Assembly: GCF_036711975.1 (NCBI RefSeq)
Contig: NW_027248941.1
Coordinates: forward strand, 2,232,001-2,296,000
Reading direction: 5' to 3'
Source of the DNA: Onthophagus taurus
Taxonomy: Eukaryota; Arthropoda; Insecta; Coleoptera; Scarabaeidae
DNA: 64,000 nucleotides
Each line of letters opens with the position of its first letter. Within the stretch, counting starts at the first letter, position 1. The notes under the pieces were generated by a model. It did not search any database. It worked only from the letters and a program-made list of their open reading frames with translations, and was not told where the DNA came from. Positions 27,158-50,463 of the stretch are shown here, in pieces. Position numbers and translations under genes: made by a program.

Positions 27158-30100
27158 TTAATAAAACCAAAAAATTATCCTTACAATAATCAATAAAGCT
27201 ACGATTTTCATGAATTGATGGCACCAATACAACCTAAAACAAATTAATTAAAACAGAATTAACCTCACTTAACCGTTAAATTTACCGTTTCCATTTTTTT
27301 AAGGCTTGTGGTAAAGTGTTCAAAGAATCCTTTAATAAATAAACTCGAATCCCTGGGATTAAACTTTTTAGGTACTCCTCAATATCTAATTTTTTTAAGT
27401 CACAAAAAAACAGAGTCCGATCTTCAACAGACATCCTCTCAATCATCTCTCGTACTTTATAAGATTTAAATTGGAAATGGATGATACAAAAATGAATGAG
27501 TACGCTTGAAAATGTTTGGACTTTTTTGTAAAATTTAACAAGGCGGGGTTTTTTCATGGTGATCATTAAAAATAAATCACCAAAGATTGCCGGTAAATAA
27601 TGCAAGAAGAAGAATGATACCAAATAAATTAATTTGTTGGTGGTTAAAAAGAACGAATAATACCACATTGCATGAATTGTTGGGTAATTAAGCCCATATT
27701 TCTCTGTGTCGGTCATAAATCTGTTCCAAGTTAATGGTTGTTGCGATGTTAAATCAAAATTATAAATCGGAATGTTAGAATTAGAGTCATTTTTTACGTT
27801 TTGAATGTCCCAAGCAATTGAGATCATTGCGTTTACGGTCATATCTGCTGGGACTATATTTGCGAAATTATCTCCATTGCATTGCAAAACCCTTAAAACT
27901 CCAGTATAAGCTCCAGCAATAACCCCTGTTGCGCCATATAAATTATTTATCCACGCTTTTATTGGTTCTTTATACGTCGAGGTAACTAAAATAATTAAAT
28001 TATAATTTTTTGAGTTAAAATATAAATTAATTTACCAATCGCTGGGCGAAAAATCGCAATTGGAAGCCCAGAACTTTCTTCTAAAACAACATTTTCAGCA
28101 ATTGCTTTGGTGTAGGCATAAGTATTTGGAAAATCTTTTAAAATACTAAAAAAAATTTATTATAATTAATACAAATTATGTTGATTTAATCAAACCCTTT
28201 AGTAATTTTTTCTTGCAACTCATCCGGTAACACCTCAACCAACTCGATTAGCTTAGTTGGAGGGATTGGAGTTGGATAAAATTTTTCCTCCGTAACGTTT
28301 TGGTTGCAATTGCTGTAAGCTGTTGAGACGTGAATCACTGCTTTTAAATTGGACATTTCATGGCATAATTTTAAGACGTCTCGGGTGCCACAAACGTTTA
28401 TGGGGACGGCGATTTTTAATTTTTCGTTGAAATTTACGGTTGCTGCTGCATGAAAAACAATCGAAACCTAAAATTATAAGTTAATTACTTTTTATGTTGG
28501 ATAATTCTGATAACCAAGGACAAATTTAGGACATTTTGTATTATTTTAGACCATAAAACTAATTCTATCTCGGAGTAGACTGTATTTTGCCAGACATAAA
28601 ACCAAGTATCTAGATTACAACCTCATATTAAATCTGACGGATTTTTGACTTTTAAGAACGTGGGAATTGACATGAAATCTTTGGATTTGAGAATAAGAGA
28701 TATTTCAGGGCGGCCGACGTCTTCGAAGTCGGCCGAGGTTGTATTTTGCCAAGAAGATCAGAAATCTTTGCGCTAGATGATCTGCCATTTAATTTTCATT
28801 GAGGTTGGTACGTTCTAGAATGCAGATTATATACAAAATTAACCAGAAGATTTTGGCCGTCAAAAAACCGAGTTTATCCGGATTGCAACTGATGTAGAAA
28901 GCAACCTCGGCCGTCTTCGAAGACGACGGCCGCCCCAATTAAAAGAAACACCAACCTCAGATGAAATCTGCTGGATTTTTGACCCTCAAGAACTTGGGAA
29001 TTGACATGACATCTCTGGATTTAAGAATAAGAGATATTTCAGGGCGGCCGACGTCTTCGAAGTCGGCCGAGGTTGTATTTTGCCAAGAAAATCAGAAATG
29101 TTTATGCTAGATGATCTGCTGTTTAATTTTCATTGAGGTTGGTACGTTTTAAAATGCAGATTATGTACAAAATTAACCAGAAGATTTTGGCCGTCAAAAA
29201 ACCGAGTTTATCCGGATTGCAACTTTTGGAGAAAGCAACCTCGGCCGTCTTCGAAGACGACGGCCGCTCCAATTAATACAAACACCAACATCATATAAAA
29301 TCTGCTGGATTTTAGACTATCAAGAACTTGAGAATTGACATGAATCCTCTGGATTTGAGAATAAGATATGTTTCAGGGCGGCCGACGTCTTCGAAGTCGG
29401 CCGAGGTTGTATTTTGCCAAGAAAATCAGTAATGTTTGTGCTAGATGATCTGCCATTTCATTTTCATTGAGGTTGGTACGTTTTAGAAAGCAGATTATGT
29501 AGAAAATTGATCAAAAGACGTCGGCCGACAAAAAAACCGAGATTATCTGGATTGCAATTGATGGAGGAAGCAACCTCGGCCGTCTTCGAAGACGAAGGCC
29601 GCCCCAATTAATACAAACACCAACCTCATATGAAATCTGCTAGATTTTTGACTCTCAAGAACTTGAGAATTGACATGAAATCTCTGGATTTGAGAATAAG
29701 ATATGTTTCAGGGCGGCCGACGTCTTCGAAGTCGGCCGAGGTTGTATTTTGCCAAGAAAATCAGAAATGTTTGTGCTAAATGATCTGCCATTTAACTTTC
29801 ATTGAGGTTGGTACGTTTTAGAATGCAGATTATGTAGAAAATTAACCAGAAGATGTTGGCCGTCAAAAAACCGAGTTTATCCGGATTGCAACTGATGGAG
29901 AAAGCAATCTCGGCCGTCTTCGAAGACGACGGCCGCCCCAATTAATACAAACATCAACATCATATGAAATCTGATGGATTTTTGACTCTCAAGAATTTGG
30001 GAATTGACATGAAATCTCTGGATTTAAGAATAAGAGATATTTCAGGGCGGCCGACGTCTTCGAAGTCGGCCGAGGTTGTATTTTGCCAAGAAAATCAGAA

Positions 30101-33100
30101 ATGTTTGTGCTAAATGATCTGCCATTTCATTTTCATTGAGGTTGGTACGTTTTAGAAAGCAGATTATGTAGAAAATTGACCAAAAGACGTTGGCCGACAA
30201 AAAACCGAGTTTATCTGGATGGAGAAAGCAACCTCGGCCGTCGTCTTCGAAGACGACGGCCGCCCCAATTAATACAAACACCAACATCATATGAAATCTG
30301 CTGGATTTTTGACTCTTAAGAACTTGGGAATTGACATGAAATCTCTGGATTTAAGAATAAGAGATATTTCAGGGCGGCCGACGTCTTCAAAGTCGGCCGA
30401 GGTTGTATTTTGCCAAGAAAATCAGAAATGTTTGTGCTAGATGATCTGCTGTTTAATTTTCATTGAGGTTGGTACGTTTTAGAAAGCAGATTATATACAA
30501 AATTAACCAGAAGATGTTGGCCGTCAAAAAACCGAGTTTATCTGGATTGCAACTGATTGAGAAAGGAACCTCGGCCGTCTTCGAAGACGACGGCCGCCCC
30601 AATTAAAAGAAACACCAACCTCAGATGAAATCTGCAGGATTTTTGACTCTCAAGAACTTGGGAATTGACATAAAATCTCTGGATTTGAGAATAAGAGATA
30701 TTTCTGGGCGGCCGACGTCTTCGAAGTCGGCCGAGGTTGTATTTTGCCAAGAAAATCAGAAATGTTTGTGCTAAATGATCTGCCATTTAACTTTCATTGA
30801 GGTTGGTACGTTTTAGAAAGCAGATTATATACAAAATTAACCAGAAGATATTGGCCGTCAAAAAACCGAGTTTATCCGGATTGCATCTGATTGAGAAAGC
30901 AACCTCGGCCGTCTTCGAAGACGACGGCCGCCCCTATTAATACAAACACCAACCTCAGATGAAATCTGCAGGATTTTTGACTCTTAAGAACTTGGGAATT
31001 GACATGAAATCTCTGGATTTAAGAATAAGAGATATTTCAGGGCGGCCGACGTCTTCGAAGTCGGCCGAGGTTATATTTTTGCCAAGAAATGAAGTCTTCA
31101 CCACTTCTCCTCAGCACATCTCAACATGATGATGGGGGGAAATTAATTAAGTTAATATCTTAACACAGCATGTGCTAGCCCATCCGCCATTTAATTTTCC
31201 TTGAGGTTGATACGTTTTAGAAAGCAGATTACGTACAAAATTAACCAGAAGATGTTGGCCGTCAAAAAACCGAGTTTATACGGATTGCAACTGATGGAGA
31301 AAGCAACCCCAATTAATACAAACAACAACCTCATATGAAATCTGCTGGATTTTTAACTCTCAAGAACTTGGGAATTGACATAAAATCTCTGGATTTAAGA
31401 ATAAGAGATATTTCAGGGCGGCCGACGTCTTCGAAGTCGGCCGAGGTTGTATTTTGTCAAAAAAATCAGAAATGTTTGTGCTAGATGATCTGCCATTTAA
31501 TTAATTTTCATTTAGGTTGGAACGGTTTAGAATGCAGATTATGTACAAAATTAACCAGAAGAAGATTACAACTGATGGAGAAAGCAACCACAATTAATAC
31601 AAACACCAACATCATATAAAATCTGATGGATTTGAAGTGACCACGAAGACATTGGACGACTTTTTCGACTCTCAACAAGTTTGGGATTGACAAAAATCCT
31701 CCGGACGCTTATTTTTTATTTCTTGATGCGCATAATCCTTGAATTGGGGATTCCCCGGGGCGGCCGACGTCTTCGAAGACGGCCGTGATTCATAATTGAA
31801 ATAAAAATTCAATAATGAAAGAAATACACTTGGTGATGTACAGGGTGTCCCAAATTCGTTGTACGCATAGGCTATCTCCGAAACTAAAAGAGATAGAAAC
31901 AAACCCCTGATAGCGTCCTATGAAGCGCCGTATTGAAAGACAGCAACAGTTATATGTCATTTTTATATTGTATCATTGTTAAATCATCTGTCATTATTAA
32001 GTTATTTGTCATTTTCATATTCTGTCATTATTAAGTCACTTGTAGGCAGTTGATAAGTAATGACCCAGCCTCAGAATAACTCTTATTCTATGGACTTAGC
32101 ATGGTACAAGTAATGCATGATCTGAATGAACTGTATCTTCAAAGAGTCCGTGAATAGAGACTATATTCATAAGAAAGACAAGATTGCAGAGATAAAAAGC
32201 AGACTGGTAGCTAAAGGAAAAAAATGTACGGCGACTAACACAAGAAGAGGAGATTGGATATAGAAGAGAAAAACTGGAAAGTGAACACTAACACTGTGTG
32301 ATTTAAACACCCAAAGTCTTTCTTCGTCCTGGTATTCGAGATAGTTAGTAGTCCTAGTTAATAGCTGTAAGAAAATCTTCATTCTGCATGATTTGGATCT
32401 CTATAGTGTGAAATTCTGGGCGGCCGACGTCTTCGAAGTCGGCCGAGTTGGCTTTTGTGCTCATTTTTAATGTGGAAACTATAAAAGCCGAAAGATTAGA
32501 ACAGATTAGGTCACTGCTGATAATCCAAGTATTCCCGCAATTTGAAACCTTCCAACATTTGATAGTTAATCCAATAGTTCCAGAAACCTGACAAAGATAT
32601 TTACAAAATTGCTCTCGAAGTGGTGGCAAAACTGATATTCTAGGATCTCTATCTTTAATCAATGTTGCCATAAAATACCAGTATTTCGATATTGAGGTTC
32701 CAAGTTATTTTGGTATTAAAGTTTGGTTTTTAACGACCCCTAATAGATAGCAAATCAAGTAAGAGACCTGACAAAGATACTTAGAGACTCACGACAACCT
32801 CAGTAGTACCAACCTCAATTGGATAAAGACCGCAAGCTTTAATTTCCAAGAGTACATATTGATTTTCAAAAACATCTAACAGATACTGAGATCCAATGAC
32901 TCCAATGATCATAACACAAGCTTGAAGAATAACTTGAAGGAGTGATAGTTATTCGACTTTTGACGATATTAATAAGCGAGTGTTGTGGAAGTTTTGAATG
33001 TTTCTTTATTAGGTTATTATTATCTCTATTATTTGGTAAAAAAGGTAATAATTGATTAAACATTTTGTAATTTAACAATAATGAACAAGTTAAAAGTGCT

Positions 33101-33632
33101 AAGGGGTATTAAATTTAAATATAGTTCTATTTTAAACCAATAGATGGCGGTAGTTTATGAATCAATTTTAACTTCATCTATTAAATAATAGATGGCGTTC
33201 GTTGAATATCAATTTAATTAATATTAATCAAGTAAAAATGCTTGATTAAGCACAAAAATAATAAATTCAGCAAAAACATAACCAATTAATTTATTTTTTT
33301 TTAATAATTACCTCAGTAGTTAAAAGTTTTCTATCTTGCTCATTAATTCCTAAATCTTTTAGCGCAACATCACCCTCAATCGGGGTTATTTTATGCCTAA
33401 ATTTAGGATCGTTCTCTTTTAACCCATCAAAAATCACATCTTCCAACAGATTCTCGACGCGTTCGTGCAGATTCTTTCCTTTTTTCGTCCTCACCAACAA
33501 ATAAATATTCCCAACATCCGGGCATGATCTCAACAGTTTTTCGACGAGAACTCGCCCCAAAAAACCCGTAGCCCCCGTTATAAAAACGTTAGCGCCGGAA
33601 TAAAAATTTTGAATTTCCGATTTTGATTCCAT
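27158..33632 (-). CDS. Fatty acyl-CoA reductase
   Basis: Reduces fatty acyl-CoA to fatty alcohol using NADPH; in insects these enzymes feed wax, hydrocarbon and pheromone pathways, usually at the ER or peroxisome. Exons 33312-33632, 28196-28467, 28036-28145, 27286-27985 and 27158-27233 join in frame to 492 residues, typical for the family. The Rossmann part has the nucleotide loop TGATGFLG (residues 19-26) and the catalytic YxxxK in NTYAYTKAIAE (Tyr207, Lys211). The male-sterility C-terminal domain fills exon 4. A plain open frame would stop just after LKKWK at 27282, but the codon is cut by a donor (AAACG|gtaaat). The last exon adds LYWCHQFMKIVALLIIVRII and FWFY, a hydrophobic tail usual for the family. 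The 4.8-kb first intron carries the palindromic GC-core satellite. Confidence 0.92.
28690..32440. repeat. Satellite with paired GC-rich palindromes, period about 334 bp
   Basis: About eight units, each with two GC-rich cores in AT-rich surroundings: cggccgacgtcttcgaagtc with its completing ggccg, and about 200 bp on, ctcggccgtcttcgaagacg. Both are near-perfect palindromes centred on ttcgaa. First-core positions are about 28711, 29045, 29379, 29715, 30048, 30375, 30709 and 31041, with decayed copies near 31418, 31762 and 32420. It occupies the first intron of the reductase. Arginine-rich open frames here are read through the cores and are not genes. Confidence 0.92.
31838..31905 (+). mobile_element. 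Solo terminal repeat of the 9985-12080 mariner-type element
   Basis: tacagggtgtcccaaattcg followed by gcataggctatctccgaaac matches the first 65 or so bases of the element at 9985, with a few differences. No partner end lies nearby, so this is a truncated or solo end inside the reductase intron. Flanking 31906-33311 holds no further recognised feature apart from palindrome copies. Confidence 0.8.
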
Positions 33633-34770
33633 TTCTAAAAATAATTAAGATAATTATTAAAGAAGTGAAAGTTTGTTGTCAAAATTGAAATCGATTTTAG
33701 TTCAAATAGAGATTTGAAAAAAAGAAAAAGTTAAAAGGAAGCGTTTTGAATTGCGCAATCTAATTTGTATTCGAAAATCGAATCTTAAATGAGTTACATA
33801 AAGTTTTCTATTTGTTTCTACACCTTAAAAAAAGATTCGCGAAAACTACGTGATTTGAATGTTAATTTAATCGATTAAAATTAATTCTTTTTTGGCAGTT
33901 TTTATTCGTTTTATCTTGAAGGGGGTAAAAAATCCTTTAAAACGAGCCCAAACACCCTTAAGTTATCTCAAATAATAACCGAGATATCTCACTTCCGGTT
34001 TAAAACATAACCTAAAAATTAGATTTTTAGGATTTTTGATTCTCTTTAAGATAAAAACAATAAATTTAAAAAAAACTTACCTATTTAAATAAATTTTATT
34101 CTTTTCAAAGTATTTTGCGGGTATAAACATAAAATGAGTCGATTAAGTTTCAAATTTCTTGCTCGAATGAAAACTAATGATAAAGGAATAGTGTTAGCGT
34201 GTTCTCGACGTGAAAGTTATAAACAAATATAACAATGGAAGTGAAAGAGCGCGATTTAAAATTGAAAAGAGGCTCTCCCCCTTCTTAAACGAATTATTTC
34301 TTTTATTATTTTTAAAACACTTAAAATTATTTTATGTACACTTAAATCGATTGAAAATACTTGTAAATGGCTAATTTGTTTATGGCGTACGCCGTTTTAT
34401 ACTGATTATTTTACATTTTGCATAAATAAATCGCTAATTTTGATACATAATTGAAATCACGTAGATTTTCTGTTTTGTGCATGAACACGTGGGGAAAAAC
34501 CTATATTTATGGACATGTTAGGTTTTACCATGGATAAAAGATTTTTTAAATAATTAATATGTATTAATAACAATATATATATATTAATTTATAAAGTGAC
34601 AGATGTCAAATTTTTTGACACATAACCCCAAAACAAAACATTTTTTTGGTTATAAACTGTTTGACGCCGAATTATGTTGCTAACTTGGTTGTTGCCAACT
34701 TAATATTTTTTATTCCAATTTTTTTAAGGATTAATTTATTTTAATTTTTTTATTGAAATAAAACTAGAAC
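33633..34770. other. 5' flank of the reductase and unique spacer
   Basis: Must contain the reductase promoter and any 5' UTR exon. At 34590-34645 the phrase agtgacagatgtcaaatttt begins a block repeated at 38805-38860 on the far side of the large array. Words of the satellite at 52.7-55.7 kb (atgttgctaactt, ttgttgccaactt) occur at about 34675-34730. Confidence 0.45.
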
Positions 34771-34774
34771 CAAC

Positions 34775-37700
34775 ACTAGACCTAGAAAGTATCCTGCATT
34801 TTCTGCACGTGGTCCATCCAGTTCTCTTTATATTCTTTGATTTTATCGTTAACTGCGAAAATTTCCAATTCCTCTCTTATATCTTCCTTTCTGATATGAT
34901 CCAATCATTCTCACAATCATCTCTTTTTAGTTTTTTCCAAGCAGGCCATAACCTTTTTAAGCAGTATCTAGCATTCTGAAAGCAAATAGGTAACTTTTGG
35001 AAACCGTATCTAATCTTTCCAAGCAGTTATTAGTTTTTTCGCAGCAGTATCTAATCTTCAGAATGCAGTAGGTAGTCTTCGAAGCTTTTCGAACGCTTTT
35101 CCAAGTAGATAGTAGTATTTTCCTGCAATATCTAGCATTCTGGAAGCAATAGTTAATCTTTTGGAAACAGTATCTCCTCTTTTCAAGCAGTTATTAGTCT
35201 TTTGCCAGCAGTATCTTGTCACTTGACATCAGTAAGTAGTCTTTTAGAGGCAGTATATCGTCTTTCCAAGTAGATAGTAAAATAGGTAACTTTTGGAAAC
35301 AGTATATCCTCTTTTCAGGATATTAGTAGTCTTCTTCCTGCAGTATTTAGTCTTCTGAAAGCGGTAAATAGTCTTTGAGAAGCATTATCTCGCCTTTCCA
35401 AGTAGATAGTAGTGTGTTCCAGTAATATGCAGCATTCTGCAAGCAGTAGCTATTCATTTGAATACAATATCTTCTCTTTTTAAGCAGTTATTAGTCTATT
35501 ACCAGCAGTATCTAGTCTTCCCCAAGCAGCCCGTAGTCTTTTTAAGCAGTATCTAGCATTTTGGAAGCAGTAGATACCTTTTGGAAATAGTATCTACTCT
35601 ATTCAAGCAGTTATTAGTCTTTTGCCAACAATATATTGTCTGTTGAAAGCAGTAAGTGGTCTTTTAGAGGCAGTATATCGCCTTTCCAAGTCGATAGTAG
35701 TCTTTTCTAGCAGCATTTAGCGTTCTGGAAACAGTAGATAATTTTTTAGAATCTATCTCCTCTTTCCAAGCAATTGTTAGTCTTTTCTCAACAGTATCTA
35801 GCTATTGGAAGATATTTCTGAATTTCAAGAACTTTGTGGCTATCTTTTAGTAATCTCGTCCGACTTCGAAGACGTCGGCCGCTCTTTTTTAAACCTTTAA
35901 GGACTCTGTTAGTAATCTCGGTCGACTTCGAAGACGTCGGCCGCCTTTTTTTTAACCTTCAAAGACTTTGTGGCTATTTTTTAATAATCTCGGCCGACTT
36001 CGAAGACGTTGACCGCCCTTTTTTAACCTTTAAGGACTCTATTAGAAATCTTGGCCGATAAGTAGTCTTTGGGAAGCATTATCTCGCCTTTCCAAGTAGA
36101 TAGTAGTATTTTCCTGCAGTATCTAGCAGTCTGACGACAAATAGGTAACTTTTGGAAACAGTATATCCTCTTTTCAGGCTATTAGTAGTCTTCTTCCAGC
36201 AGTATTTAGTCTTTTGAAAGCAGTAAGTAGTCTTTGAGAAGCATTATCTCGCCTTTCCAAGTAGATAGTAGTGTTTTCCAGTAATATGCAGCATTCTGCA
36301 AGCAGTAGCTATTCATTTGAATACAATATCTTCTCTTTTTAAGCAGTTATTAGTCTATTACCAGCAGTATCTAGTCTTCCCCAAGCAGCCCGTAGTCTTT
36401 TTAAGCAGTATCTAGCATTTTGGAAGCAGTAGATACCTTTTGGAAATAGTATCTACTCTATTCAAGCAGTTATTAGTCTTTTGCCAACAATATATTGTCT
36501 GTTGAAAGCAGTAAGTGGTCTTTTAGAGGCAGTATATCGCCTTTCCAAGTCGATAGTAGTCTTTTCTAGCAGCATTTAGCGTTCTGGAAGCAGTAGATAA
36601 TTTTTTAGAATCTATCTCCTCTTTCCAAGCAATTGTTAGTCTTTTACCAACAGTATCTAGCTATTGGAAGATATTTCTGAATTTCAAGAACTTTGTGGCT
36701 ATCTTTTAGTAATCTCGGCCGACTTCGAAGACGTCGGCCGCTCTTTTTTAAACCTTTAAGGACTCTGTTAGTAATCTCGGTCGACTTCGAAGACGTCGGC
36801 CGCCTTTTTTTTTAACCTTTAAGGACTTTGTGGCTATTTTTTAATAATCTCGGCCGACTTCGAAGACGAGTAGAGATAAGTAGTTTTTGGGAAGCATTAT
36901 CTCGCCTTTCCAAGTAGATAGTAGTATTTTCCTGCAGTATCTAGCAGTCTGACGACAAATAGGTAACTTTTGGAAACAGTATATCCTCTTTTCAGGCTAT
37001 TAGTAGTCTTCTTCCAGCAGTATTTAGTCTTCTGAAAGCAGTAAGTAGTCTTTGAGAAGCATTATCTTGCCTTTCCAAGTAGATAGTAGTGTTTTCCAGT
37101 AGTATGTAGCATTCTGCAAGCAGTACCTATTCATTTAAATACAATATCTTCTCTTTTTAAGCAGTTATTAGTCTATTACCAGCAGTATCTAGTCTTCCCC
37201 AAGCAGTTCATGGTCTTTTTAAGCAGTATCTAGCATTTTAGAAGCAGTAGATACCTTTTAGAAATAGTATCTACTCTATTCAAGCAGTTATTAGTCTTTT
37301 GCCAACAATATATTGTCTTTTGAAAGCAGTAAGTAGTCTTTTCGAGGCAGTATATCGCCTTTTCAAGTAGATAGTATCTTTTGCCAGCAGTATCTAGCTA
37401 TTGCAAGATATTTCTGAATCTCAAGAACTTGTGGCTATCTTTTAGTAATCTCGGCCGACTTCGAAGACGTTGGCCGTCCCTTTTTTAAGTCTTTGGCAAG
37501 CATTATCTCTCCTTTGCAAGTAGATAGTAGTGTTTTACAGCAGTATATACCGTTCTGGAAGCAGTAGATAATTTTTTAGAATCTATCTCCTCTTTCCAAG
37601 CAATTGTTAGTCTTTTGCCAGCAGTATGTAGTCTTTTTCAAGCAGTCTATAGTCTTATTAACCAATATCTAGCATTTTGGAAGCAAGAGGTAACTTTTGA

Positions 37701-38460
37701 ATACAGTGTTCCTCTTTTCAAGCAGTTATTAGTGTCTTGTCAGCAATATCTTGTCTTCTGAAAATAGTAAGTAGTATTTTAGAGGCAGCAAATAGTATTT
37801 CCTAGTAGATAGCAGTCTTTTCCAGCAGTATCTAGTATTCTGCAAGCAGTAGGCATTCATTTGGCTACAATATCTCCTCTTTCAAAGCAGTTATTAATCT
37901 TGTACCAGCAGTATTTAGTCTTCTTCAAGCAGCTCATAGTCTATTTAACCAGTATCTATCATTCTGGATGCAATAGATAACTTTTGGAAACAGTATCTTC
38001 TCTTTTCAAGCAGTTATTAGTCTTTTGGCAGCAGTATCTTGTCATTTGACATCAGTAAGTAGTCTTTTAGAGGCAGTATATTGCCTTTCCAAGTAGATAG
38101 TAGTCTTTTCCAACAGTATCTAGCGTTCAGAAAGTAGTAGATAATTTTTGGAATCAGTGTTTTCAGTTTTTCCAGTAATATCTAGTCTTGTCCAAGCAAC
38201 CTATAGCCTTTTTAAGCAGTTTCTAGCTTTCTGGAAGCATTAAGCAACTTTTGGAAACAGTATTTCTTCATTTCAAGCAGTTATCAGTCTTTTGGCAGCA
38301 GTATGTTGTCACTTAAAAGCAGTAAATAGTCTTTTAGAGGTAACATATCGCCTTTTCAAGTAGATAGTAGTCTTTTCCAACAGTATCTTAGTTTTTTCCA
38401 GTAGTATCTGGTCTTCTCCAAGCAGCCCATAGTATTTTTAAGAAGTTTCTAGCATTCTAG
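34775..38460. repeat. Degenerate short-unit array with 820-850 bp higher-order repeat
   Basis: Built from degenerate units of about 28-32 bp such as agcagttattagtcttttgc, cagcagtatctagcattctg and gaagcagtaggtaacttttg. Longer blocks repeat: ttagtagtcttcttcc recurs near 35326, 36178 and 36998. Two to three GC palindromes (ctcggccgacttcgaagacg) sit in each of the blocks at about 35860-36030 and 36712-36870, with another at 37448. The same array family resumes at 41160-43270 and 55730-56220. Confidence 0.88.
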
Positions 38461-38710
38461 AAGCAATAGGTGTTATTACTTGTGATGTCCATTTTTTGGA
38501 CAATTTTGGGCAATTTTTAGTGCTTCCACAACGTATATTTGATTCGCCATTAACTTTATGTCCAAGGACCTCAATCGCAGATTTAATATCGTTAATGTCA
38601 AAGGAAGGGCGAATATTACGAATTTCTACCCGAAAACTTCGATTTTGTTTGGGTTGGTACGCCTGACATTTGGTTCCTTTTTTTAATTTACTGCTTTTAT
38701 GGTAACACAA
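38438..38710 (-). pseudogene. Retrotransposon gag-like fragment (PRE_C2HC-type)
   Basis: A 90-codon frame contains FRVEIRNIRPSFDINDIKSA followed by IEVLGHKVNGESNIR. This pattern (VxIRNxxxxxxxxDIKxxxxxxGHxV) is that of the domain preceding zinc knuckles in ORF1/gag proteins of insect non-LTR retrotransposons. After about 60 residues it runs into array sequence, so it is a broken remnant at the right edge of the 34.8-38.5 kb array. Confidence 0.55.
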
Positions 38711-38997
38711 TAATCATCTTAGTTATTTATTTACACTTTAACCTTCTCTTTGCCTAAATTCTTCAAATCTTAAATATTAATTAAAATAAATTATATTAAT
38801 TTACAAAGTGACAGATGTCAAATTTTTTGACACATAACCTCAAAAAAAAAATTTTTTTTGTTAGAATTTTTTAAAACTCATTTTAGAGCAAATAAACTAT
38901 TACAAAAGCTTAACGGATAGCAAATTAAGGTCAAAACGTCTTTCTTTGTGCATCTCATCCGTTATGTTGCGCTCAACTCGAATTTGCATCGTACAAA

Positions 38998-39081
38998 ATG
39001 CAAAAACTCATTTTATTCATTTTAATGTGTTTTAAGCGATTAAACGGTTATTTATTGTTCCCCGAGGGAACGTTTCTCCAG
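38998..39081 (+). CDS. Possible alternative or orphan first exon, DM4/DM12 type
   Basis: Reads MQKLILFILMCFKRLNGYLL then FPEGTFLQ, a signal peptide followed by the LLFPxGTxLQ opening of DM4/DM12 proteins, and stops at CAG|gtgaga in phase 0. The exon at 39168-39281 has the same design and phase. Either the gene has two alternative first exons, or this is what is left of a tandem duplicate. Confidence 0.5.
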
Positions 39082-39167
39082 GTGAGACTATTTTTAATCT
39101 ATATAACCATTAAAGTCAATAAAAAAACCGTTAGGTTTGTTTCTCCAAAAAAAATTTAGTTACCAAA

Positions 39168-41112
39168 ATGAACCCGTTACATCAACTCCTTTTATTAACA
39201 ATAATTCAAAGCATTTCGTGCGATTACAATTTAGGATTCGATAAATTTTTGCTATTATTTCCCAGATACACCGTGTTACAGGTAAAAAAAACCAAATTTT
39301 TATTTTCCAAATCTTTATTTATTTACATTTCCTTTTGGGGTTTTTCGGGTTAAAAAAAATCGTTCTCGTCTTTAACGTGGACCACTTAAACTTCAAAATA
39401 TAATAAAAAGAGGCGATTAGCACCCCAAAAATCGCAACGGTTCGTATCAACATCCTTTTACGATCATCGTGTTCGGGTTCCGAGGTCCATTTTAAAAAGG
39501 TAACAACATCCTTAGCGACTTGACTGGCAGTGGCTGGGGTGCCATCTTCGTAATCAACGACTTCGTCGAAAATCGTTTGTGCCATCGATAAAGCTCCCCC
39601 GGTGAAATAAGGGTTATAATTTTGGCCCTCTCGTAAAACAATTCCAGCTGGGGGATCCATGTATCCCAAAAGTAACGAAAACACGTAATTCTCCCCGTTG
39701 TGTCTTCCGGGGATTATGTAACTTAAATCGGGGGGGAACGCTCCGTTATTTGCAAATCTAGCTTCTTCTTCGTTTCTGTATGGGCCGGGGATGTAATCGG
39801 AGAGCTTTCCGGGGCGCTCGAACATCTCCCCGGTTTCATCGGGGCCATCTTTAATCGTAACAGCTTCCGCTTCTTCTTTCGCTTCGTGCTCCGTGTGCGA
39901 TACGTTAATTAAATCGCGATAAGCGACGTGTTTTAACGAATGACAAGAAGCACATACTTGTTTGTACACTTGGTAACCTCTTCGTATGCTCGCGTGGTCT
40001 AAGGATCGTAATAATCCGTTGTGGTACCAGGGGTAATGAGCCGGGTGGAGTTCTAAATCGGCAGCTTTCACCGATTTATCTAAAATGTATATTGCGGTCC
40101 CTAATACTCCTGAGATTGCTCCGATTGTTGTTAACCATCGTTTTCGAGATGAATTTTTTAACAGCTTTTGTAGCGTTTGTGACATTTTTTAATCTGCCAA
40201 TTAATTAATGTCAAAGGATTTTGTTTAAACTTACCGATTTTGACATTTTTTTTTGAGGTTATGTTTTTTATTGTCAATAATCATTTAATTTTCTTCTTAA
40301 TCTTCCAATATTAAACTTAATTCATCTTTTATTAATAATTAATTAATTAATTTACATTAAATTCCAAAAATTAATTTTATTTTTTGAGGTTAAGTAACTT
40401 CTCAATTTTTTTTTTTGAGGTTGTATAACATGTCAATTTTTTTTTGAGGTTAAGTAAACCTGTCAATTTTATTTTTTGACGCGAACTAAACTTATTTTTA
40501 TTAATAAATTTAATTTTTCTTTCTAGTTAACAATCGGAATGTCCGTTCCTGTTATTTTACCAAACAGAACGATCGTAATCAGCCCCGGAATCCAAAACAA
40601 CTTCGATTTGCCTTATAATTTAACCAATTTTCAAGTGGTAACTTACGCAAGATCGAACCAAGGCTTCGATATATCTCGAGATACAATGTATGGATACATC
40701 ATAGGGATACTTGAAAAGTAATTAATTTTTTATCAAATAATTATCGTAATAATTCATTAAATCGTTTTAGTGTTGGATTAAACGGAGAAGAATGTTTGTT
40801 AAGATCAATTTGTGAGGTATCTCGGACCCCGTTTCATATCGAAGATCAAGAAAGTGTTTTAGAACGGATTGCGCATCATATTTTGACGTAAGTTTTCTTC
40901 AAATTAAGGTATTTATTAAAGATTTTTTCTTTAATAGACCGTCGATCGAGTACAAAAACGTTTCTGTGTTAAATGAATTCGATCCAACTTTAAATTTCCA
41001 AGATAAGCTTTTATTAGCAGAGGAAATTGGAAGGATGGGGAAAAAGTGTGCGAGTGTTTACACTGGATGTTTACTTTCAATAGTTGATTTGTTTTCGTCG
41101 CTATTTTTATAA
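39168..41112 (+). CDS. DM4/DM12 family secreted protein
   Basis: Insect-specific family of about 200-residue secreted proteins of unknown function. Exons 39168-39281, 40527-40717, 40771-40887 and 40938-41112 give 198 residues. Exon 1 encodes a signal peptide (LLLLTIIQSISC) and FLLLFPRYTVLQ. Exon 2 has LTIGMSVPVILP and NFDLPYNLTNFQ. Exon 3 has the family core GEECLLRSICEVSRTPFH. Exon 4 has GKKCASVYTGCLLSIVDLF, with the two conserved late cysteines. Junction phases (0, 2, 2) agree. Intron 1 (39282-40526) contains the whole cytochrome c1 gene on the other strand. Biochemical role unknown. Confidence 0.85.
39319..40185 (-). CDS. Cyt-c1: Cytochrome c1, complex III (intronless, nested)
   Basis: Haem-bearing subunit of the mitochondrial cytochrome bc1 complex, passing electrons from the Rieske protein to cytochrome c on the intermembrane-space side. 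The 288-residue frame is complete. It has a basic N-terminus and a hydrophobic bipartite presequence (residues 1-42), mature start ADLELHPAHYPW, haem-attachment CASCH (Cys78, Cys81, His82), RHNGENYVFSLLLGY, the methionine axial-ligand segment GGALSMAQ (Met201), and a C-terminal membrane anchor at about 247-264. There is no intron, whereas nearly every other gene here is split; it lies in intron 1 of the opposite-strand DM4/DM12 gene. Frame integrity and the conserved haem ligands argue for a working gene. Retroposition is possible but unproven. Confidence 0.96.
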   Translation of the reverse strand: MSQTLQKLLKNSSRKRWLTTIGAISGVLGTAIYILDKSVKAADLELHPAHYPWYHNGLLRSLDHASIRRGYQVYKQVCASCHSLKHVAYRDLINVSHTEHEAKEEAEAVTIKDGPDETGEMFERPGKLSDYIPGPYRNEEEARFANNGAFPPDLSYIIPGRHNGENYVFSLLLGYMDPPAGIVLREGQNYNPYFTGGALSMAQTIFDEVVDYEDGTPATASQVAKDVVTFLKWTSEPEHDDRKRMLIRTVAIFGVLIASFYYILKFKWSTLKTRTIFFNPKNPKRKCK

Positions 41113-41159
41113 TTATAACATAACCTCAAAAAAAAAATTTAAGGATTTAATTATAAAAA

Positions 41160-43270
41160 AAATATTCCTCTTCCAAAATCATTCCTTCAAGGACTTTGTG
41201 GCTATTTTTTAACCTTTGGGCGACTTCAAAACAATTAAAAACAAGCAATAAGTAGTCTATTAGCAATAATATATAGTCTTGTGCAAGTAATAACTCGTTT
41301 TTAACAGCAATATCTACTTTTCCATTAGTAATTAGGCTTCTTTAAGGAGTTAGCAGTCTTGCCAACTGTATATAAACACTTGGAAGCAGATTTTCGAATA
41401 TACGTTTTATCCAGTTATACTTAACACAGTGCCTTAATGGGGAATCTTTAACGAGGTTGCTGACCATACAAGGAATACAATAAAATAAATATCAATACAA
41501 CGCGTATTTTGCTTATTAATAAAGCCATTAAGCCAAAAATGAGGTTCATCGCCGACGATGTATTTTTAATAAAATTTAGAATTTTCTTCAAACTTTAGTA
41601 GAACCCCATCTGGGAAGTTGTAGTGTAATGTTCTGCAACCAATAAGTAATTTTTTAAATGCAATATCAAGCCTTGTGCATACAGTAAGTATCCTTCAAGT
41701 ACTTAGTAGTTGTTTAGTACCAATGTGGAATCTTCTCCAAACATTTAATAGTCTTTTAGCAGCAGCATATAGCATTTTGGAAGCAGTAGGTAACGTTTAG
41801 AAATAGTATATTCTCTTGTTAAAGAGTTATTAGTCTTTTTCCAATAGTATGTAGCGTTCTAGAAGTAATAAGTACTCTTTTGGAAGCATTATTTTGATTT
41901 TGCAAGTAAGCAGTAGTTTTTTCCAACGGTATCTAGCATTTTGGAAGCAGTAAATACCTTTGGGAAACAGTATATCCTCTTTCTAAGCGATTAGTAGTGC
42001 TCTGCCAGCAGTATATATCTTCTGAAAGCAGTAAGTAGTCTGTGGGAAGCATTATCTCGCCTTTCCAAGTAGATAGTAATGTTTTCTAGTAGCATCTAGT
42101 ATTCTGCAAGCAGTAGGATACAATATCTCTTCTTTACAAGCAGTTATTGGTCTTTTATCAGCAATATCTAGTCTCCACCTAACAGCCCATAGTCTTTTTA
42201 AGCAGTATCTAGCATTTTGGAAGTAGTATCTACTTTATTCAAGCAGTTATTAGTCTTTTGCTAGCAATATATTGCCTTCTGAAAGCAGTAAGTAGTCTAT
42301 TCCAGCAGTATTTAGCCTTCTGGAAGCAGTAGGTAATTTTTTAGAATCAGTATCTCCTCTTTCCCAGCAATTGTTAGTCTTTTGTCAGCAGTATCTAACT
42401 ATTGGAAGGTATTTCTGTATTTCAAAAACTTTGTGGCTATCTTTTAGTAATCTCGGCCGACTTCGAAGACGTCGGTCGCCATTTTTTGTAACCTCCAAGG
42501 ACTTTGTGGGTATTTTTTAGTAATCTCAGCCAGTAAGTAGACTTTGGGAAGCATTATCCCGCGTCTCCAAGCAGGTAGTAGTGTTTTCTAGTAGTTTCTA
42601 GCATTCTGCAAGCAGTAGGTATTCATTTGGATTCAATATCTCCTCTTTTCAAGCAGTTATTAGTCTTTTGCCAGCACTATTTTGCCTTCTGAAAGCAGTA
42701 AGTAGTCTTTTAGAGGCAGCATATCGCATTTCCTAGTAGATATTAGGCTTTTCCAGCAGTATCTAGCATTCTGCAAGCTGTAGATAATTATTTCGATACA
42801 ATATCTCCTCTTTCCAGTCTTCTGCAAGCAGCCTATAGTCTTTTTAAGCAGTATCTTGCATTCTGGAAGCAATAGGTAACTTTTGGAAACAGTATTTCCT
42901 CTTTCCAAACAGTTATTAGTTTTTTCTAGTAGCATTTAGCCTTGTCCAAGCAGCCCATAGTCTCTGCAAGCAGTTTCTAGCATTCTGGAAGCATTAAGCA
43001 ACTTTTGGAAACAGTATCTAGTCTTCTGAATGCAGTAAGTAGTCCTGGAAGGAGTATCTCTTCTTTTTAAGCAGTTATTAGTCTTTTGCCAGCAATATCT
43101 TGTTTTCTAAAAGCAGTAAGTAATCTTTTAGAGGCAGTATATCGCGTTTCCAAGTAGATAGTAGTCTTTTCCTGCAGTATCTAGTATTCTGGAAGCAATT
43201 AGTAATCTTTTAGCACCAGTTTCTAACCTTTCCAAACTTTTAGTACAACTTTTCACGCTCTCCAAGAAAC
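41160..43270. repeat. Degenerate short-unit array, second block
   Basis: Same family as 34775-38460 (agcagttattagtcttttgc, gaagcagtaagtagtctttt, cagtatctagcattctg), with one GC palindrome (ctcggccgacttcgaagacg) near 42455. It is more decayed at its left end (41160-41700). It separates the DM4/DM12 gene from the 3' end of SAM50. Confidence 0.85.
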
Positions 43271-43442: not shown

Positions 43443-46400
43443 TTAAGAAAATTGCAATCCGATACCGAATTGTACCCCCGGTTGGGTTTGGTCCCCATCG
43501 CTAAACTTAATTGGAAAACAATAGTTGATTTCAACTCGGGCCATCTGCCCCAAGCGGACCGCGATTCCCAATCCAGTCGATAATCGGACGTTTTTGCTCA
43601 TTTGATCGACATATTTCTCCTCGGATTTCTCAGTCGCCACATTTCCCGCATTCACGAAGAAATGCGTGCGGAAAATGTCTCCAAATCCACCTTTACCCGG
43701 CCGGAAAGGTAATGGAGTGAACAAATGCAACCCGGCGGACCAATACATCTCGGCTCCTAAAGCATCCCCATCAGCTCTCGGACCAATTCCTCTCATTTGA
43801 AATCCTCGCAAATCCAAAGGTCCCCCCAAAAAGAACATATCGCTCATTCCTATTTGCATATCATTACCAATTCCTTTTAAAAATCCACCACCAAGAGTTC
43901 CTAAAATTAAATAATTAATAATAGTATATTATTATTTAAAATAAAGTCTATATACATTCCAGAAAATGATAATATCTCAGCTCCTGAAATGTGATTTAAT
44001 GAATTTTTTAAACGAGTGTTAGTGCATAACTAGAACTAACACTAGATCTAGAATTAGAAACATTCGGATTTAGCCGCACCTCTCTCAAGACTGCTAAACC
44101 TGAATTATTCTAGTTCTAGGTCTTGTGTTAGTTCTAGTGACAGTGCAAAAATAGAACTAACACTAGATCTAGAACTAGAAACATTCGGATTTAGCCGCAA
44201 GTCTCTCAAGACGGCTAAACCCGAATGATTCTAGTTCTAGGTCTTGTGTTAGTTCTAGTTTTAGTGCAATACAAATATACAACATAGTGATATTTTATGC
44301 TAACTAGCGTTACTTACAACTTATTTCTAATCATTTTGAACAATTTTGCTACCTTATAAACCAATTTTGGACAATGTTGGTGCAATTTTCAGTCATTCTG
44401 AGCAACCTGGACTTGCTATAAACTAGTCCTTATACATTTAGACAAGTTTTTAATGACTATCAACTAATTTTCAGTCATTTTGAGCAACATAGATTGTTTA
44501 AAAACTAGTTGTTAATCATTTAGACAAGTATAAAATTATGCTCAGCCATTTTTCAATGATTTTGAATAACATGAGATGGCTATCAACATATTTCCAATCA
44601 TTTTGAACAATTTTGCTACCTTATAAACCAATTTTAGACAATGTTGGTGCAGTTTTCAATCGTTCTGAGCAACCCAGATTTGCTATAAACTAGTCCTTAT
44701 ACATTTAGACAAGTTTTTAATGACTATCAAGTAGTTTTCAATCATTTTGAGCAACATGGATTGTCTAAAAACTAGTTGTTAATCATTTAGAAAAGTATAA
44801 AATTATGCTCAATCAATTTTCAATGATTTTAAATAACATGAGATAGCTATAAATTTATTTTTAAACATTTTGCTACCTTATAAAGCAATTTTGGACAATG
44901 TTGGTGCAATTTTCAGTCATTCTGAGCAACCTGGACTTGCTATAAACTAGTCCCTATACATTTAGACAAGTTTTTAATGACTATTAACTAGTTTTTAATC
45001 ATTTTGAGCAACACTGATTGTGTAAAAATTAGTTGTTAATGATTTAGACAAGTATAAAATTATGCTCAGCCACTTTTCAATGATTTTGAATAACATGAGA
45101 TGGCTATCAACATATTTCCAATCATTTTGAACAATTTTGCTACCTTATAAACCAATTTTAGACAATGTTGATGCAGTTTTCAATCATTCTGAGCAACCTG
45201 GACTTGCTATAAACTAGTCCTTATACATTTAGACAAGTTTTTAATGACTATCAACTAATTTTCAGTCATTTTGAGCAACATAGATTGTTTAAAAACTAGT
45301 TGTTAATCATTTAGACAAGTATAAAATTATGCTCAATCAATTTTCAATGATTTTAAATAACATGAGATAGCTATAAACCTATTTTTAAACATTTTGCTAC
45401 CTTATAAAGCAATTTTGGACAATGTTGGTGCAATTTTCAGTCATTCTGAGCAACCTGGACTTGCTATAAACTAGTCCTTATACATTTAGACAAGTTTTTA
45501 ATGACTATTAACTGGTTTTTAATCATTTTGAGCAACACTGATTGTGTAAAAACTAGTTGTTAATGATTTAGACAAGTATAAAATTATGCTCAGCCACTTT
45601 TCAATGATTTTGAATAACATGAGATAGCTATCAACATATTTCCAATCATTTTGAACAATTTTGCTACCTTATAAACCAATTTTAGACAATGTTGGTGCAG
45701 TTTTCAATCGTTCTGAGCAACCCAGATTTGCTATAAACTAGTCCTTATACATTTAGACAAGTTTTTAATGACTATCAAGTAGTTTTCAATCATTTTGAGC
45801 AACATGGATTGTCTAAAAACTAGTTGTTAATCATTTAGACAAGTATAAAATTATGCTCAATCAATTTTCAATGATTTTAAATAACATGAGATAGCTATAA
45901 ACCTATTTTTAAACATTTTGCTACCTTATAAAGCAATTTTGGACAATGTTGGTGCAATTTTCAGTCATTCTGAGCAACCTGGACTTGCTATAAACTAGTC
46001 CTTATACATTTAGACAAGTTTTTAATGACTATTAACTGGTTTTTAATCATTTTGAGCAACACTGATTGTGTAAAAACTAGTTGTTAATGATTTAGACAAG
46101 TATAAAATTATGCTCAACCAGTTTTCAATGATTTTGAATAACATGAGATGGCTATGAAGTTATTTCCAATCATTTTGAACAATTTTGCTACCTTATAAAC
46201 CAATTTTAGACAATGTTGGTGCAGTTTTCAATCGTTCTGAGCAACCCAGATTTGCTATAAACTAGTCCTTATACATTTAGACAAGTTTTTAATGACTATC
46301 AAGTAGTTTTCAATCATTTTGAGCAACATGGATTGTCTAAAAACTAGTTGTTAATCATTTAGAAAAGTATAAAATTATGCTCAATCAATTTTCAATGATT

Positions 46401-49400
46401 TTAAATAACATGAGATAGCTATAAATTTATTTTTAAACATTTTGCTACCTTATAAAGCAATTTTGGACAATGTTGGTGCAATTTTCAGTCATTCTGAGCA
46501 ACCTGGACTTGCTATAAACTAGTCCTTATACATTTAGACAAGTTTTTAATGACTATCAACTAATTTTCAGTCATTTTGAGCAACATAGATTGTTTAAAAA
46601 CTAGTTGTTAATCATTTAGACAAGTATAAAATTATGCTCAGCCATTTTTCAATGATTTTGAATAACATGAGATGGCTATCAACATATTTCCAATCATTTT
46701 GAACAATTTTGCTACCTTATAAACCAATTTTAGACAATGTTGATGCAGTTTTCAATCATTCTGAGCAACCTGGACTTGCTATAAACTAGTCCTTATACAT
46801 TTAGACAAGTTTTTAATGACTATTAACTAGTTTTTAATCATTTTGAGCAACACTGATTGTGTAAAAACTAGTTGTTAATGATTTAGACAAGTATAAAATT
46901 ATGCTCAGCCACTTTTCAATGATTGTGAATAACATGAGATGGCTATGAAGTTATTTCCAATCATTTTGAACAATTTTGCTACCTTATAAACCAATTTTAG
47001 ACAATGTTGGTGCAGTTTTCAATCATTCTGAGCAACCTGGACTTGCTATAAACTAGTCCTTATACATTTAGATAAGTTTTTAATGACTATCAACTAATTT
47101 TCAGTCATTTTGGGCAACATGGATTGTTTAAAAACTAGTTGTTAATCATTTAGACAAGTATAAAATTATGCTCAATCAATTTTCAATGATTTTAAATAAC
47201 ATGAGATAGCTATAAACCTATTTTTAAACATTTTGCTACCTTATAAAGCAATTTTGGACAATGTTGGTGCAATTTTCAGTCATTCTGAGCAACCTGGACT
47301 TACTATAAACTAGTCCTTATACATTTAGACAAGTTTTTAATGACTATTAACTAGTTTTTAGTCATTTTGAGCAACACTGATTGTCTAAAAACTAGTTGTT
47401 AATGATTTAGACAAGTATAAAATTATGCTCAGCCACTTTTCAATGATTTTGAATAACATAAGATGGCTATGAAGTTATTTCCAATCATTTTGAACAATTT
47501 TGCTACCTTATAAACCAATTTTAGACAATGTTGGTGCAGTTTTCAATCGTTCTGAGCAACCCAGATTTACTATAAACTAGTCCTTATACATTTAGACAAG
47601 TTTTTAATGACTATCAAGTAGTTTTCAATCATTTTGAGCAACATGGATTGTCTAAAAACTAGTTGTTAATCATTTAGACAATTATAAAATTATGCTCAAC
47701 CAGTTTTTAATGATTTGGAATAACATGAGATGGCTGTCAACTTATTTCCAATCATTTTGAACAATTTTGCTACCTTACAAACCAATTTTAGACAATGTTG
47801 ATGCAATTTTCAGTCATTCTGAGCAACCTGGACTTGCTATAAATTAGTCCTTATACATTTAGACAAGTTTTTAATGACTATTAACTAGTTTTTAGTCATT
47901 TTGAGCAACACTGATTGTCTAAAAACTAGTTGTTAATGATTTAGACAAATATAAAATTATGCTCAGCCACTTTTCAATGATTTTGAATAACATAAGATGG
48001 CTATGAAGTTATTTCCAATCATTTTGAACAATTTTGCTACCTTATAAACCAATTTTAGACAATGTTGGTGCAGTTTTCAATCGTTCTGAGCAACCCAGAT
48101 TTGCTATAAACTAGTCCTTATACATTTAGACAACTTTTTCATGATTATTAACTAGTTTTCAGTCATTTTGAGCAACATGGATTGTTTAAAAACTAGTTGT
48201 TAATCATTTAGACAAGTATAAAATTATGCTCAACCAATTTTCAATGATTTTGAATAACATGAGATGGCTATGAACCTATTTCGAAACATTTTGAAAAATG
48301 TTGCTACCTTATAAAGCAATTTTGCACAATGTTGGTGCAGTTTTCAAACGTTCTGAGCAACCTGGACTTGCTATAAATTAGTCCTTATACATTTAGACAA
48401 CTTTTTCATGATTATTAACTAGTTTTCAGTCATTTTGAGCAACATGGATTGTTTAAAAACTAATTGTTAATGATTTAGACAAGTATAAAATTATGCTCAG
48501 CCAGTTTTCAATGATTTTGAATAACATGAGATGGCTATGAACCTATTTCGAAACATTTTGAAAAATTTTGCTACCTTATAAAGCAATTTTGCACAGTATT
48601 GGTGCAGTTTTCAATCGTTCTGAGCAACCTACAACTTAGATACTTTCTAGTTCTAGGTCTAGAGTTAGTTCTAGTTTTACATTTGCACTGTCACTAGACC
48701 TAGAAACATTTGGGTTTAGCCACCAGTCTCTAAAGACGGCTAAAATTTATATAGTTTTTATGTAAAATATGGAAATAATATGGACTTCTTACATGTTTTG
48801 TTAAAAAATTTCATTGCATTACATTTTGGGAGCTGACATATTATCATTTTCCGGGCTGTATGTAGACTTTATTGTATCACTGTAGGAGCATACAGTGTGT
48901 TAATTAATTATCGTACCCGACGTCATCATTACAAGTATGCAACCAACATCACAGTACTAGTATTGCAATACGTAAATTGCGTATTATAAAACAAATAGTG
49001 TGATATTGGTTGCATAGTTACAACGACGAGATATGAGTATAATGAGGGCTGAATGAATAATAGTCCATTATATGTGAGTACTTTGTCCATGACTAGTATT
49101 AAAATTGATTCAATAAATTTATTTTTTTAAATCAATTTTTGAATAAAATTTAAACGTCAAAGTGACACAAATTCATTGTTACCAACTGTAGCCAACTTCA
49201 CATCAATATGTCAAAATTAAATGTCAATTTTATGAAACGTCATATTTTTTTTGAAATTAATTTTAAACAAACTAAAAAAAAAATATTACCTTGAATTACA
49301 ACATCCTTCAAAACACTGATATTCGATTGAACGTAAAGATCGTTTTTTAAAAACCCAATATTTCCCCCAATCCCAGCGAATTCCGTATTTAACTGAAACA

Positions 49401-50463
49401 GAGTTCCACAAGCTGGGAAAATTAAATCATCCCTCAAATCCACCGTAAGAATATGCGCGAGGGCCGATTTTAAAGTTGGACCAGAATTCTCTCGAACTTC
49501 AAACGACGAAGATTTCGACAAAACCCCCAATTCCCTCGTCGAACCCTTATATTGAAAGTTATGACGAACATTAGCAAACGATAAGAGCCCAAAATCAACT
49601 GCAAATCCTCGTTCAAGCTCTTTATAACCCGAAGCGGCGACCTCCGCGACGTTTTGAAAAACACTCGCTGAAATTTTCGGCTCGTATTTCCCCATTAACG
49701 GTTTTACAGCCCCCACACTAAAATTATTTGATTTCCGGGAACCATAACTGTACTCAACGAAGACTCTTTCCCCGCGTCCAAACGCGTTCGGGACGCGTAA
49801 TCCAACAACTACGGATCCTTCGTTGTTACCCACTTCGGTGTTAACACCCCCAACGACTCGTTTTAATTCTTTTACTTGAAACGTAACCTAAAAAATTTTT
49901 TTTTTAAATAATTAAGAATTAATTTTTGATTTATTTACATCTAATCCTTCTGGTGTTGCTTTGGGACCTCGACTAACATCAATATGTACCGCGATGTTGC
50001 GAAAACAACTTAAAGTTTCCAATTTAAGCCTCGCCTAAAAAATAAATTTGAAACATAACCTCACTTAATTTTATTTTTAAATTATTACTTTATGCGCATT
50101 ATAAAGAACCTCCCGGAAATTTTTTGATTTAAATATATCTTTCGTTGCGTCCTCTACAATATCATCTTTAGTTCTACTTAATCCATTAATACTTATTGTG
50201 TCCACACGGACCTAAAAGTGAGGTTAGAATCAATTTTTTTTTTTAAATTTATGGTTATAATAAAAAATATCTTACAGGTACATCTAATGGTATAGATCGC
50301 GACTCTTCGATTTCATCGTAATTAATTTCGGCTTTTGGAATGCCGAATTGGGGCATTTTAAGGTCCGAGTTATCCTAAAAAGTGAGGTTATGTCATAAAC
50401 CGGGTGGAGACTTTAATGGAATTTTTGAAGTTGGGGGCTTACCTTGGCGTGAACGATACCCAT
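43443..50463 (-). CDS. Sam50: SAM50 / sorting and assembly machinery component 50
   Basis: Omp85-family channel of the mitochondrial outer membrane that folds and inserts beta-barrel proteins. Exons 50443-50463 (MGIVHAK), 50276-50374, 50089-50211, 49939-50034, 49290-49887 and 43443-43900 give 464 residues, close to the animal norm. A single POTRA domain spans exons 2-4 (VRVDTISINGLSRTKDDI, HIDVSRGPKATPEGLDV). The 16-strand barrel fills exons 5-6, including the conserved loop motif LRGF in GGPLDLRGFQMRGIGPR and the closing strand GVQFGIGLQFS. All junctions are in phase. The first coding exon has only 21 bases. The last intron (43901-49289) is expanded to 5.4 kb by an inverted-repeat-bounded satellite. 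Head-to-head with the RBM26/27 gene about 620 bp away. Confidence 0.95.
43930..48880. mobile_element. Inverted-repeat-bounded satellite block in the last SAM50 intron
   Basis: Outer ends pair as inverted repeats for about 70 bp: aataaagtctatatacattc with gaaaatgataatatctcagc at 43939-43990, and their complement at about 48795-48875. Just inside lie palindromic segments (aactagaactaacactagat, cattcggatttagccgc, cggctaaa) at 44020-44270 and again, inverted, at 48640-48745. The interior is about 16 monomers of roughly 262 bp (tgagcaacctggacttgcta, gacaagtataaaattatgct), with two alternating subtypes. No transposase frame exists. It could be a foldback-type element carrying a satellite. Confidence 0.75.

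Follow-up and report, generated by a model that had tools for sequence, protein, structure and literature searches.

How does one short GC-rich palindrome come to sit inside satellites that are otherwise unalike? The question is raised by a 64-kb stretch of the scarab beetle Onthophagus taurus (contig C16, positions 2232001-2296000; "the window" hereafter means this whole stretch), in which an element referred to here as the module recurs in arrays of quite different unit length. The recurrence, first noticed in a reading of the sequence alone, held up: 25 matches to TCGGCCGNNTTCGAA (at most 1 mismatch) were found in the window, compared with a mean of 0.01 and a maximum of 1 in 100 shuffles, and the total came to 26 modules when the 23-bp core was allowed as many as 4 substitutions. 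In the genome as a whole (290.8 Mb in 33 contigs), the module belongs to a repeat system that is nearly confined to one end-half of one chromosome, contig C8, which is probably the X. Tentatively, I read the core as a site by which the X is recognised.

What is conserved is a 28-mer with a set orientation, GCGGCCGACGTCTTCGAAGTCGGCCGAG, inside about 45 bp that grade into unrelated flanks; written in one orientation, the common unit of the window arrays is GGGC-GGCCGACGTCTTCGAAGTCGGCCG-AG(A/G)TT. Its core is laid out as inverted 8-bp arms (CGGCCGAC/GTCGGCCG) flanking an asymmetric 9-bp spacer, and the palindrome carries three extra bases on one side, so that the module has a direction. The sequence-only reading had described a palindrome of about 25 bp; what the copies share extends further and is less symmetric than that. 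When single-stranded, the module is predicted to fold as a hairpin whose outer stem is 8 bp long; the predicted folding energy of a 34-base piece is -11.3 kcal/mol. The surroundings had also been called CpG-poor; the window is indeed GC-poor (30.6% G+C) but not CpG-poor, and any argument from a CpG island or methylation target was dropped because the observed/expected ratio for CpG is 1.20.

Eighteen of the copies lie at 28711-32446, 17 of them centred on TTCGAA and one on TTCAAA (near 30386). Sixteen of these fall inside a 334-bp satellite array (28.6-31.45 kb), placed by Tandem Repeats Finder at 28618-31089 on the plus strand with 7.4 copies and a 91% match, and holding two opposite-oriented modules per unit; the earlier figure of at least 18 copies within this satellite is reached only with the copies at 31772 and 32432, which lie past the array. 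The window's first exact 28-mer is at 28710-28737 (plus strand), and the second module of the unit, in the opposite orientation, at 28906-28934 (minus strand). Past the array, a module variant with a different flank occupies 31760-31787, and a module in a third flank type 32420-32447, both on the plus strand. As had been claimed, the module is also present in different short-unit arrays at 35.9-42.5 kb, where eight more copies were found, all on the minus strand: three in a 62-bp-unit array at 35843-36058 (35865, 35927 and 35999), three in another 62-bp-unit array at 36702-36876 (36724, 36786 and 36859), a single module at 37450-37477 in a short-unit (21/41-bp) array (37460), and a single module at 42452-42479 in a short-unit array (42462). 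The surroundings of the two array types were said to be unalike, and no match extends past the module.

Genome-wide there are 1719 exact matches to the 16-mer TCGGCCGNCNTCGAAG and 1190 to the exact 28-mer, and the reversed 16-mer and 28-mer patterns have none across the whole genome. Contigs C1-C7, which make up 67.7% of the genome, hold 39 of the 1190 28-mers and 86 of the 1719 16-mers. Three variant searches with completely listed matches, for a 41-mer (61 sites), a 31-mer (5) and a 34-mer (89), have no site in common and place 151 of 155 sites on C8, a contig of 21.07 Mb that amounts to 7.2% of the genome. Two of the remaining sites are on C10 (less than 1 kb apart), one is on C7, and one is on C16, within the window: this sole C16 site of the 34-mer search (C16:2268708-2268741) lies in the 62-bp-unit array at 36702-36876. 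Among the matches listed for a 39-mer (259 in all), 94 of 100 are on C8, as are 96 of the 100 listed for a 34-mer ending in GAGGTT (105 in all). The 151 C8 sites span 0.99-9.51 Mb and form 45 clusters more than 5 kb apart, and they are therefore not one array; single 16-mers occur as low as 0.15 Mb. Strand polarity along C8 was considered and rejected, as minus-strand sites exist (e.g., C8:855963). Such concentration in one half of a chromosome calls for a chromosome-specific cause.

The identification of C8 as the X chromosome of O. taurus, probable as it is, draws on names, telomeres and genes. The X of this species is named Scaffold 8 in PMC10942260. C8 may well correspond to that scaffold, since the contigs used here are not sorted by length, as is usual for the scaffolding pipeline named in the O. 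taurus paper. C1 and C8 start with (CCCAA)n and C11 has (CCCAA)n in its first 300 bases, which corresponds to a TTGGG telomere; the end of C16 is degenerate TTGGG-like DNA. TCAGG has been reported for Tenebrionoidea and Cleroidea, which makes Tribolium an unlikely source of this DNA. TTGGG telomeres are reported in scarabs including O. taurus in PMC8233369, and in a lacewing, a leaf-rolling weevil, a damselfly and a bee in PMC12564400. The onthophagine X is described as largely syntenic with the Tribolium X (PMC12902608, on O. binodis), and Drosophila Muller element F as the ancestral insect X (PMC10715201). Two Plexin genes (1.01 and 4.19 Mb) and a Caps-like gene (2.82 Mb; named by eye from its translation) are on C8, all within the motif domain, and RpS3A lies on C16 (2.416 Mb), some 120 kb from the window. 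If the tested genes, three fly Pax genes among them, are assumed to belong to Muller F, then 3 of 9 are on C8 (p 0.023) and 4 of 9 on C8 and C16 together (p 0.004), with the three Pax genes counted as misses. These positions weakly support C8 being the X.

The core is found in many contexts. In 40 non-redundant contexts (66 modules) from the window and 20 C1-C3 regions, information is near background outside about -8 to +33, and a wider set comprised 45 non-redundant contexts on C8 (137 modules), 32 on C1-C3 (40 modules) and 9 in the window (26 modules). The C8 consensus, ATACTTGGGGC-core-AGATTATTTCTT, tapers gradually; information content declines over about 30 bp on either side of the core, and there are no defined ends. 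Among 20 module-holding C1-C3 and window records, 138 of 190 pairs have a module-covering BLAST match, which spans at most 60 bp in 109 pairs, 61-100 bp in another 15 and over 100 bp in the other 14. The longest shared flanks are those of the C1 relatives of the 334-bp satellite (loci L010 and L011) and of a C3 subfamily (L024 and L026-L028). This subfamily, GGCCGATGTCTTCGAAAACGGCCGTGTT, lies on an autosomal contig at C3:6.4 and 24.7-25.7 Mb, with longer shared flanks of its own.

The sequence-only reading had proposed looking for homologous flanks, as expected of a single ancient satellite. None connect the two window arrays, while longer shared flanks do exist in the 14 pairs just mentioned; the idea of a single ancient satellite is thus rejected where the two window arrays and most of the compared C1-C3 and window records are concerned, and only in part for C8, where flank words recur. 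That the module has either moved by itself or been kept by selection is a fair dilemma, given the number of non-homologous flanks that hold it: for a 45-bp core to turn up between dozens of unrelated flanks, it must either have moved or have been retained again and again.

The explanation I favour, with some hesitation, is that the core is an X-recognition site embedded in satellites, which takes C8 to be the X, a protein to bind the core, and this binding to mark the X. A sequence-specific DNA-binding protein would read the core, and core clusters would label the X, whether for dosage compensation, for sex-chromosome chromatin or for pairing in meiosis. Local tandem duplication would have raised the copy number, and the arrays, because of the GC-rich inverted arms, would readily undergo gain, loss and inversion. 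Retention, direction and confinement of the core would then be accounted for because an X-reading protein recognises it, and the arrays, inversions, losses and gradient because of hairpin-driven satellite turnover; recognition and hairpin-driven turnover may both be true.

Known systems offer partial likenesses. The Drosophila 1.688-X satellite forms short X-linked arrays near genes and enhances their dosage compensation (PMC6063223). Module arrays, concentrated here on the putative X, are likewise short and near genes, tandem arrays in or near genes having been seen in the window. The fly satellite is a single repeat family of about 359 bp, whereas here one 45-bp core is re-used in many unit lengths and flanks vary with them. 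The MSL recognition element is a 21-bp GA-rich motif recognised by CLAMP/MSL (PMC11856597). Like the module, it is a short oriented motif clustered on the X (again the putative X here), but the module consensus is a GC-rich palindrome and not a GA-rich 21-mer. The HIM-8/ZIM pairing-centre motif of C. elegans, at about 12 bp, is a chromosome-specific short motif clustered toward one chromosome end, as is the module, and differs from it in not being palindromic. Confinement to one region of one chromosome, typical of pairing centres, was found here as well (151 of 155 sites at C8:0.99-9.51 Mb), and a role like that of a pairing centre suits this regional pattern no less well than chromosome-wide dosage compensation.

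Several results weigh against a recognition site on the X. C1-C7 retain their 86 16-mers in 42 clusters; none of the 155 variant sites falls in the 11.5 Mb of C8:9.51-21.07 Mb, which leaves a chromosome-wide X mark unsupported; and flank words recur commonly on C8. As for the X itself, an unc-13-like gene is on C10, the two CaMKII matches are on C1 (multi-exon) and C7 (uninterrupted), and the 14 Pax-domain matches all lie outside C8 and C16. The uninterrupted match (C7:37140209-37140583) covers the CaMKII association domain and is perhaps a retrocopy. Two of the comparisons that bear on constraint belong with these points. In the alignment between contigs (8 units from the window and 2 from the C1 locus L010, with L011 left out as its units were unmatched to the anchor), the module is 7.6% divergent and the remainder 12.2%, and 22% of 28-column windows are as low as the module, which is thus unexceptional. 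In the 35.9-42.5 kb copies, the module is, judged by eye, no less altered than the word TGTGGCTATCTTTTAGTAATCTC next to it.

The window array itself gave a more conserved picture: divergence is 0.9% for module 1, 2.9% for module 2 and 9.4% for the remainder, and values as low as those of modules 1 and 2 occur in 2.4% and 9.5%, respectively, of 28-column windows. Anchoring on a flank word yielded 48 anchors, with the module 8-11 bp upstream in 35, and no rate claim was drawn from it. Because the divergence results are mixed, the alignments are suggestive only of constraint on the module, and strong purifying selection was set aside on the same mixed outcome.

Nearly as likely as a recognition site is a neutral or selfish X satellite, that is, a hairpin-forming piece without host function that accumulates in part of the X. 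Unequal exchange would copy it, as would template switching at hairpins during replication, which would also take short surroundings into new flanks. The mixed evidence of constraint speaks for such a satellite, as do the many different unit lengths among arrays and the density gradient on C8, where 31 of the 45 clusters are at 1-4 Mb. Array architecture points the same way. In a C8 sample of twenty 2-kb stretches picked for holding a module (148 modules with at most 5 substitutions), 94 of 122 neighbouring module pairs less than 400 bp apart are inverted, and the commonest centre-to-centre distance is 53 bp. Within one array (L063, C8:3951000-3953000), the 30-bp spacer between inverted copies occurs in both orientations (5 and 7 of 12 pairs), and the other, outer spacer has the same orientation in 11 of 11; the two orientations of the 30-bp spacer number 12 and 14 across the C8 sample as a whole. 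Short inversions with ends in or beside modules are therefore likely.

Modules can also be absent almost precisely, which again suits neutral turnover. The 334-bp window unit and its 304-306-bp C1 relative differ by the second module, the sequence at this point being GCAACCTC-(28 bp)-AATTAATAC in the former and GCAACCTC-AATTAATAC, with no module, in the latter. The second module is missing from two window units, and one C1 unit is left with GCTCC, which looks like a remnant of the module. Loss seems to explain at least some of these absences, which is what a hairpin-forming stretch would lead one to expect. What plain turnover alone does not do is place a 45-bp core with three one-sided bases in dozens of unrelated flanks.

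A foldback or miniature inverted-repeat transposon is rather improbable. It would consist of a module, 30 bp and an inverted module, with AATAATCTC...GAGATTATT outside, would be non-autonomous now or formerly, and would prefer or survive on the X. Such elements share with the module the make-up of short non-coding inverted-repeat units in many contexts, and 27 inverted pairs with a 25-34-bp spacer were indeed present in the fetched loci; the scattered single copies on C1-C7 and the C3 subfamily with its longer shared flanks are further points in favour. Yet all 27 pairs come from C8 loci, with none in the 20 C1-C3 regions or the window, and the tapering flanks lack the sharp ends of a foldback element. 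The tiny mobile hairpin that had been suggested found no target-site duplication in its support, the sole filled/empty comparison (334-bp against 304-306-bp units) having none. A site for a site-specific recombinase, with the 8-bp arms and 9-bp spacer as its target and the 30-bp segment between inverted copies as the flipped piece, is very unlikely: the arm-spacer-arm layout and the L063 spacer in both orientations between constant outer flanks would suit it, but the second spacer is never flipped, template switching at hairpins accounts for the flips with no need of a dedicated enzyme, and no recombinase gene turned up, none having been searched for.

The DNA around the window arrays is gene-rich, as a reductase, cytochrome c1 and an Omp85-domain gene lie beside them. 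The 334-bp array is contained in an intron (28467-33291) of a partial fatty acyl-CoA reductase gene in three reading frames on the minus strand (27282-33644); frames 33291-33644, 28186-28467 and 27282-28031 correspond in turn to positions 1-89, 89-162 and 209-258 of the Pfam profile NAD_binding_4. Its neighbours are cytochrome c1 (39319-40188) and the Omp85-domain gene (43443-43928 and 49240-49887). Elsewhere in the window, another AT-rich array (9055-9795 and 13241-13522) has 93-bp units, each of which carries one copy of a second GC-rich near-palindrome, GCCGAGGTCGCTTGCGGCCGAGGC. A 121-bp repeat at 44015-44269 has an inverted-repeat-like centre (TTTAGCCGCA...GACGGCTAAA), and words similar to it adjoin the C1 copies of the 334-bp satellite.

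Beetles compensate X dosage, with the Tribolium results called controversial, and the passages concerned in PMC11753715 and PMC11856597 name no recognition element. ATAC-seq in O. taurus found 52.3% of 151 regions that are more open in minor than in major males to be on the X, as given in PMC10942260. Literature searches with three module pieces (13, 13 and 16 bases) gave no matches, and among the papers listed on beetle X satellites and dung beetles no title or abstract opening described such a module. In its fullest form, the proposal is that the 45-bp module would be a cis-acting X-identity mark of a beetle lineage: a dedicated DNA-binding protein would read it where it is clustered in satellites of the ancestral insect X, and would seed dosage compensation or sex-chromosome pairing from these places. 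In its entirety I regard this as doubtful. If true, this would be the first X-identity element known in beetles, as far as the literature searches go, and one built as a palindrome repeatedly re-packaged into new satellites. If the module is functionless, it would still be a clean example of many unrelated satellites, on one half of a chromosome, drawing on a single short core. A motif that is nearly confined to the putative X, of probe size and exactly conserved more than 1000 times offers a direct route to a binding protein, and the module is thus a candidate tag by which a beetle cell may recognise its X.

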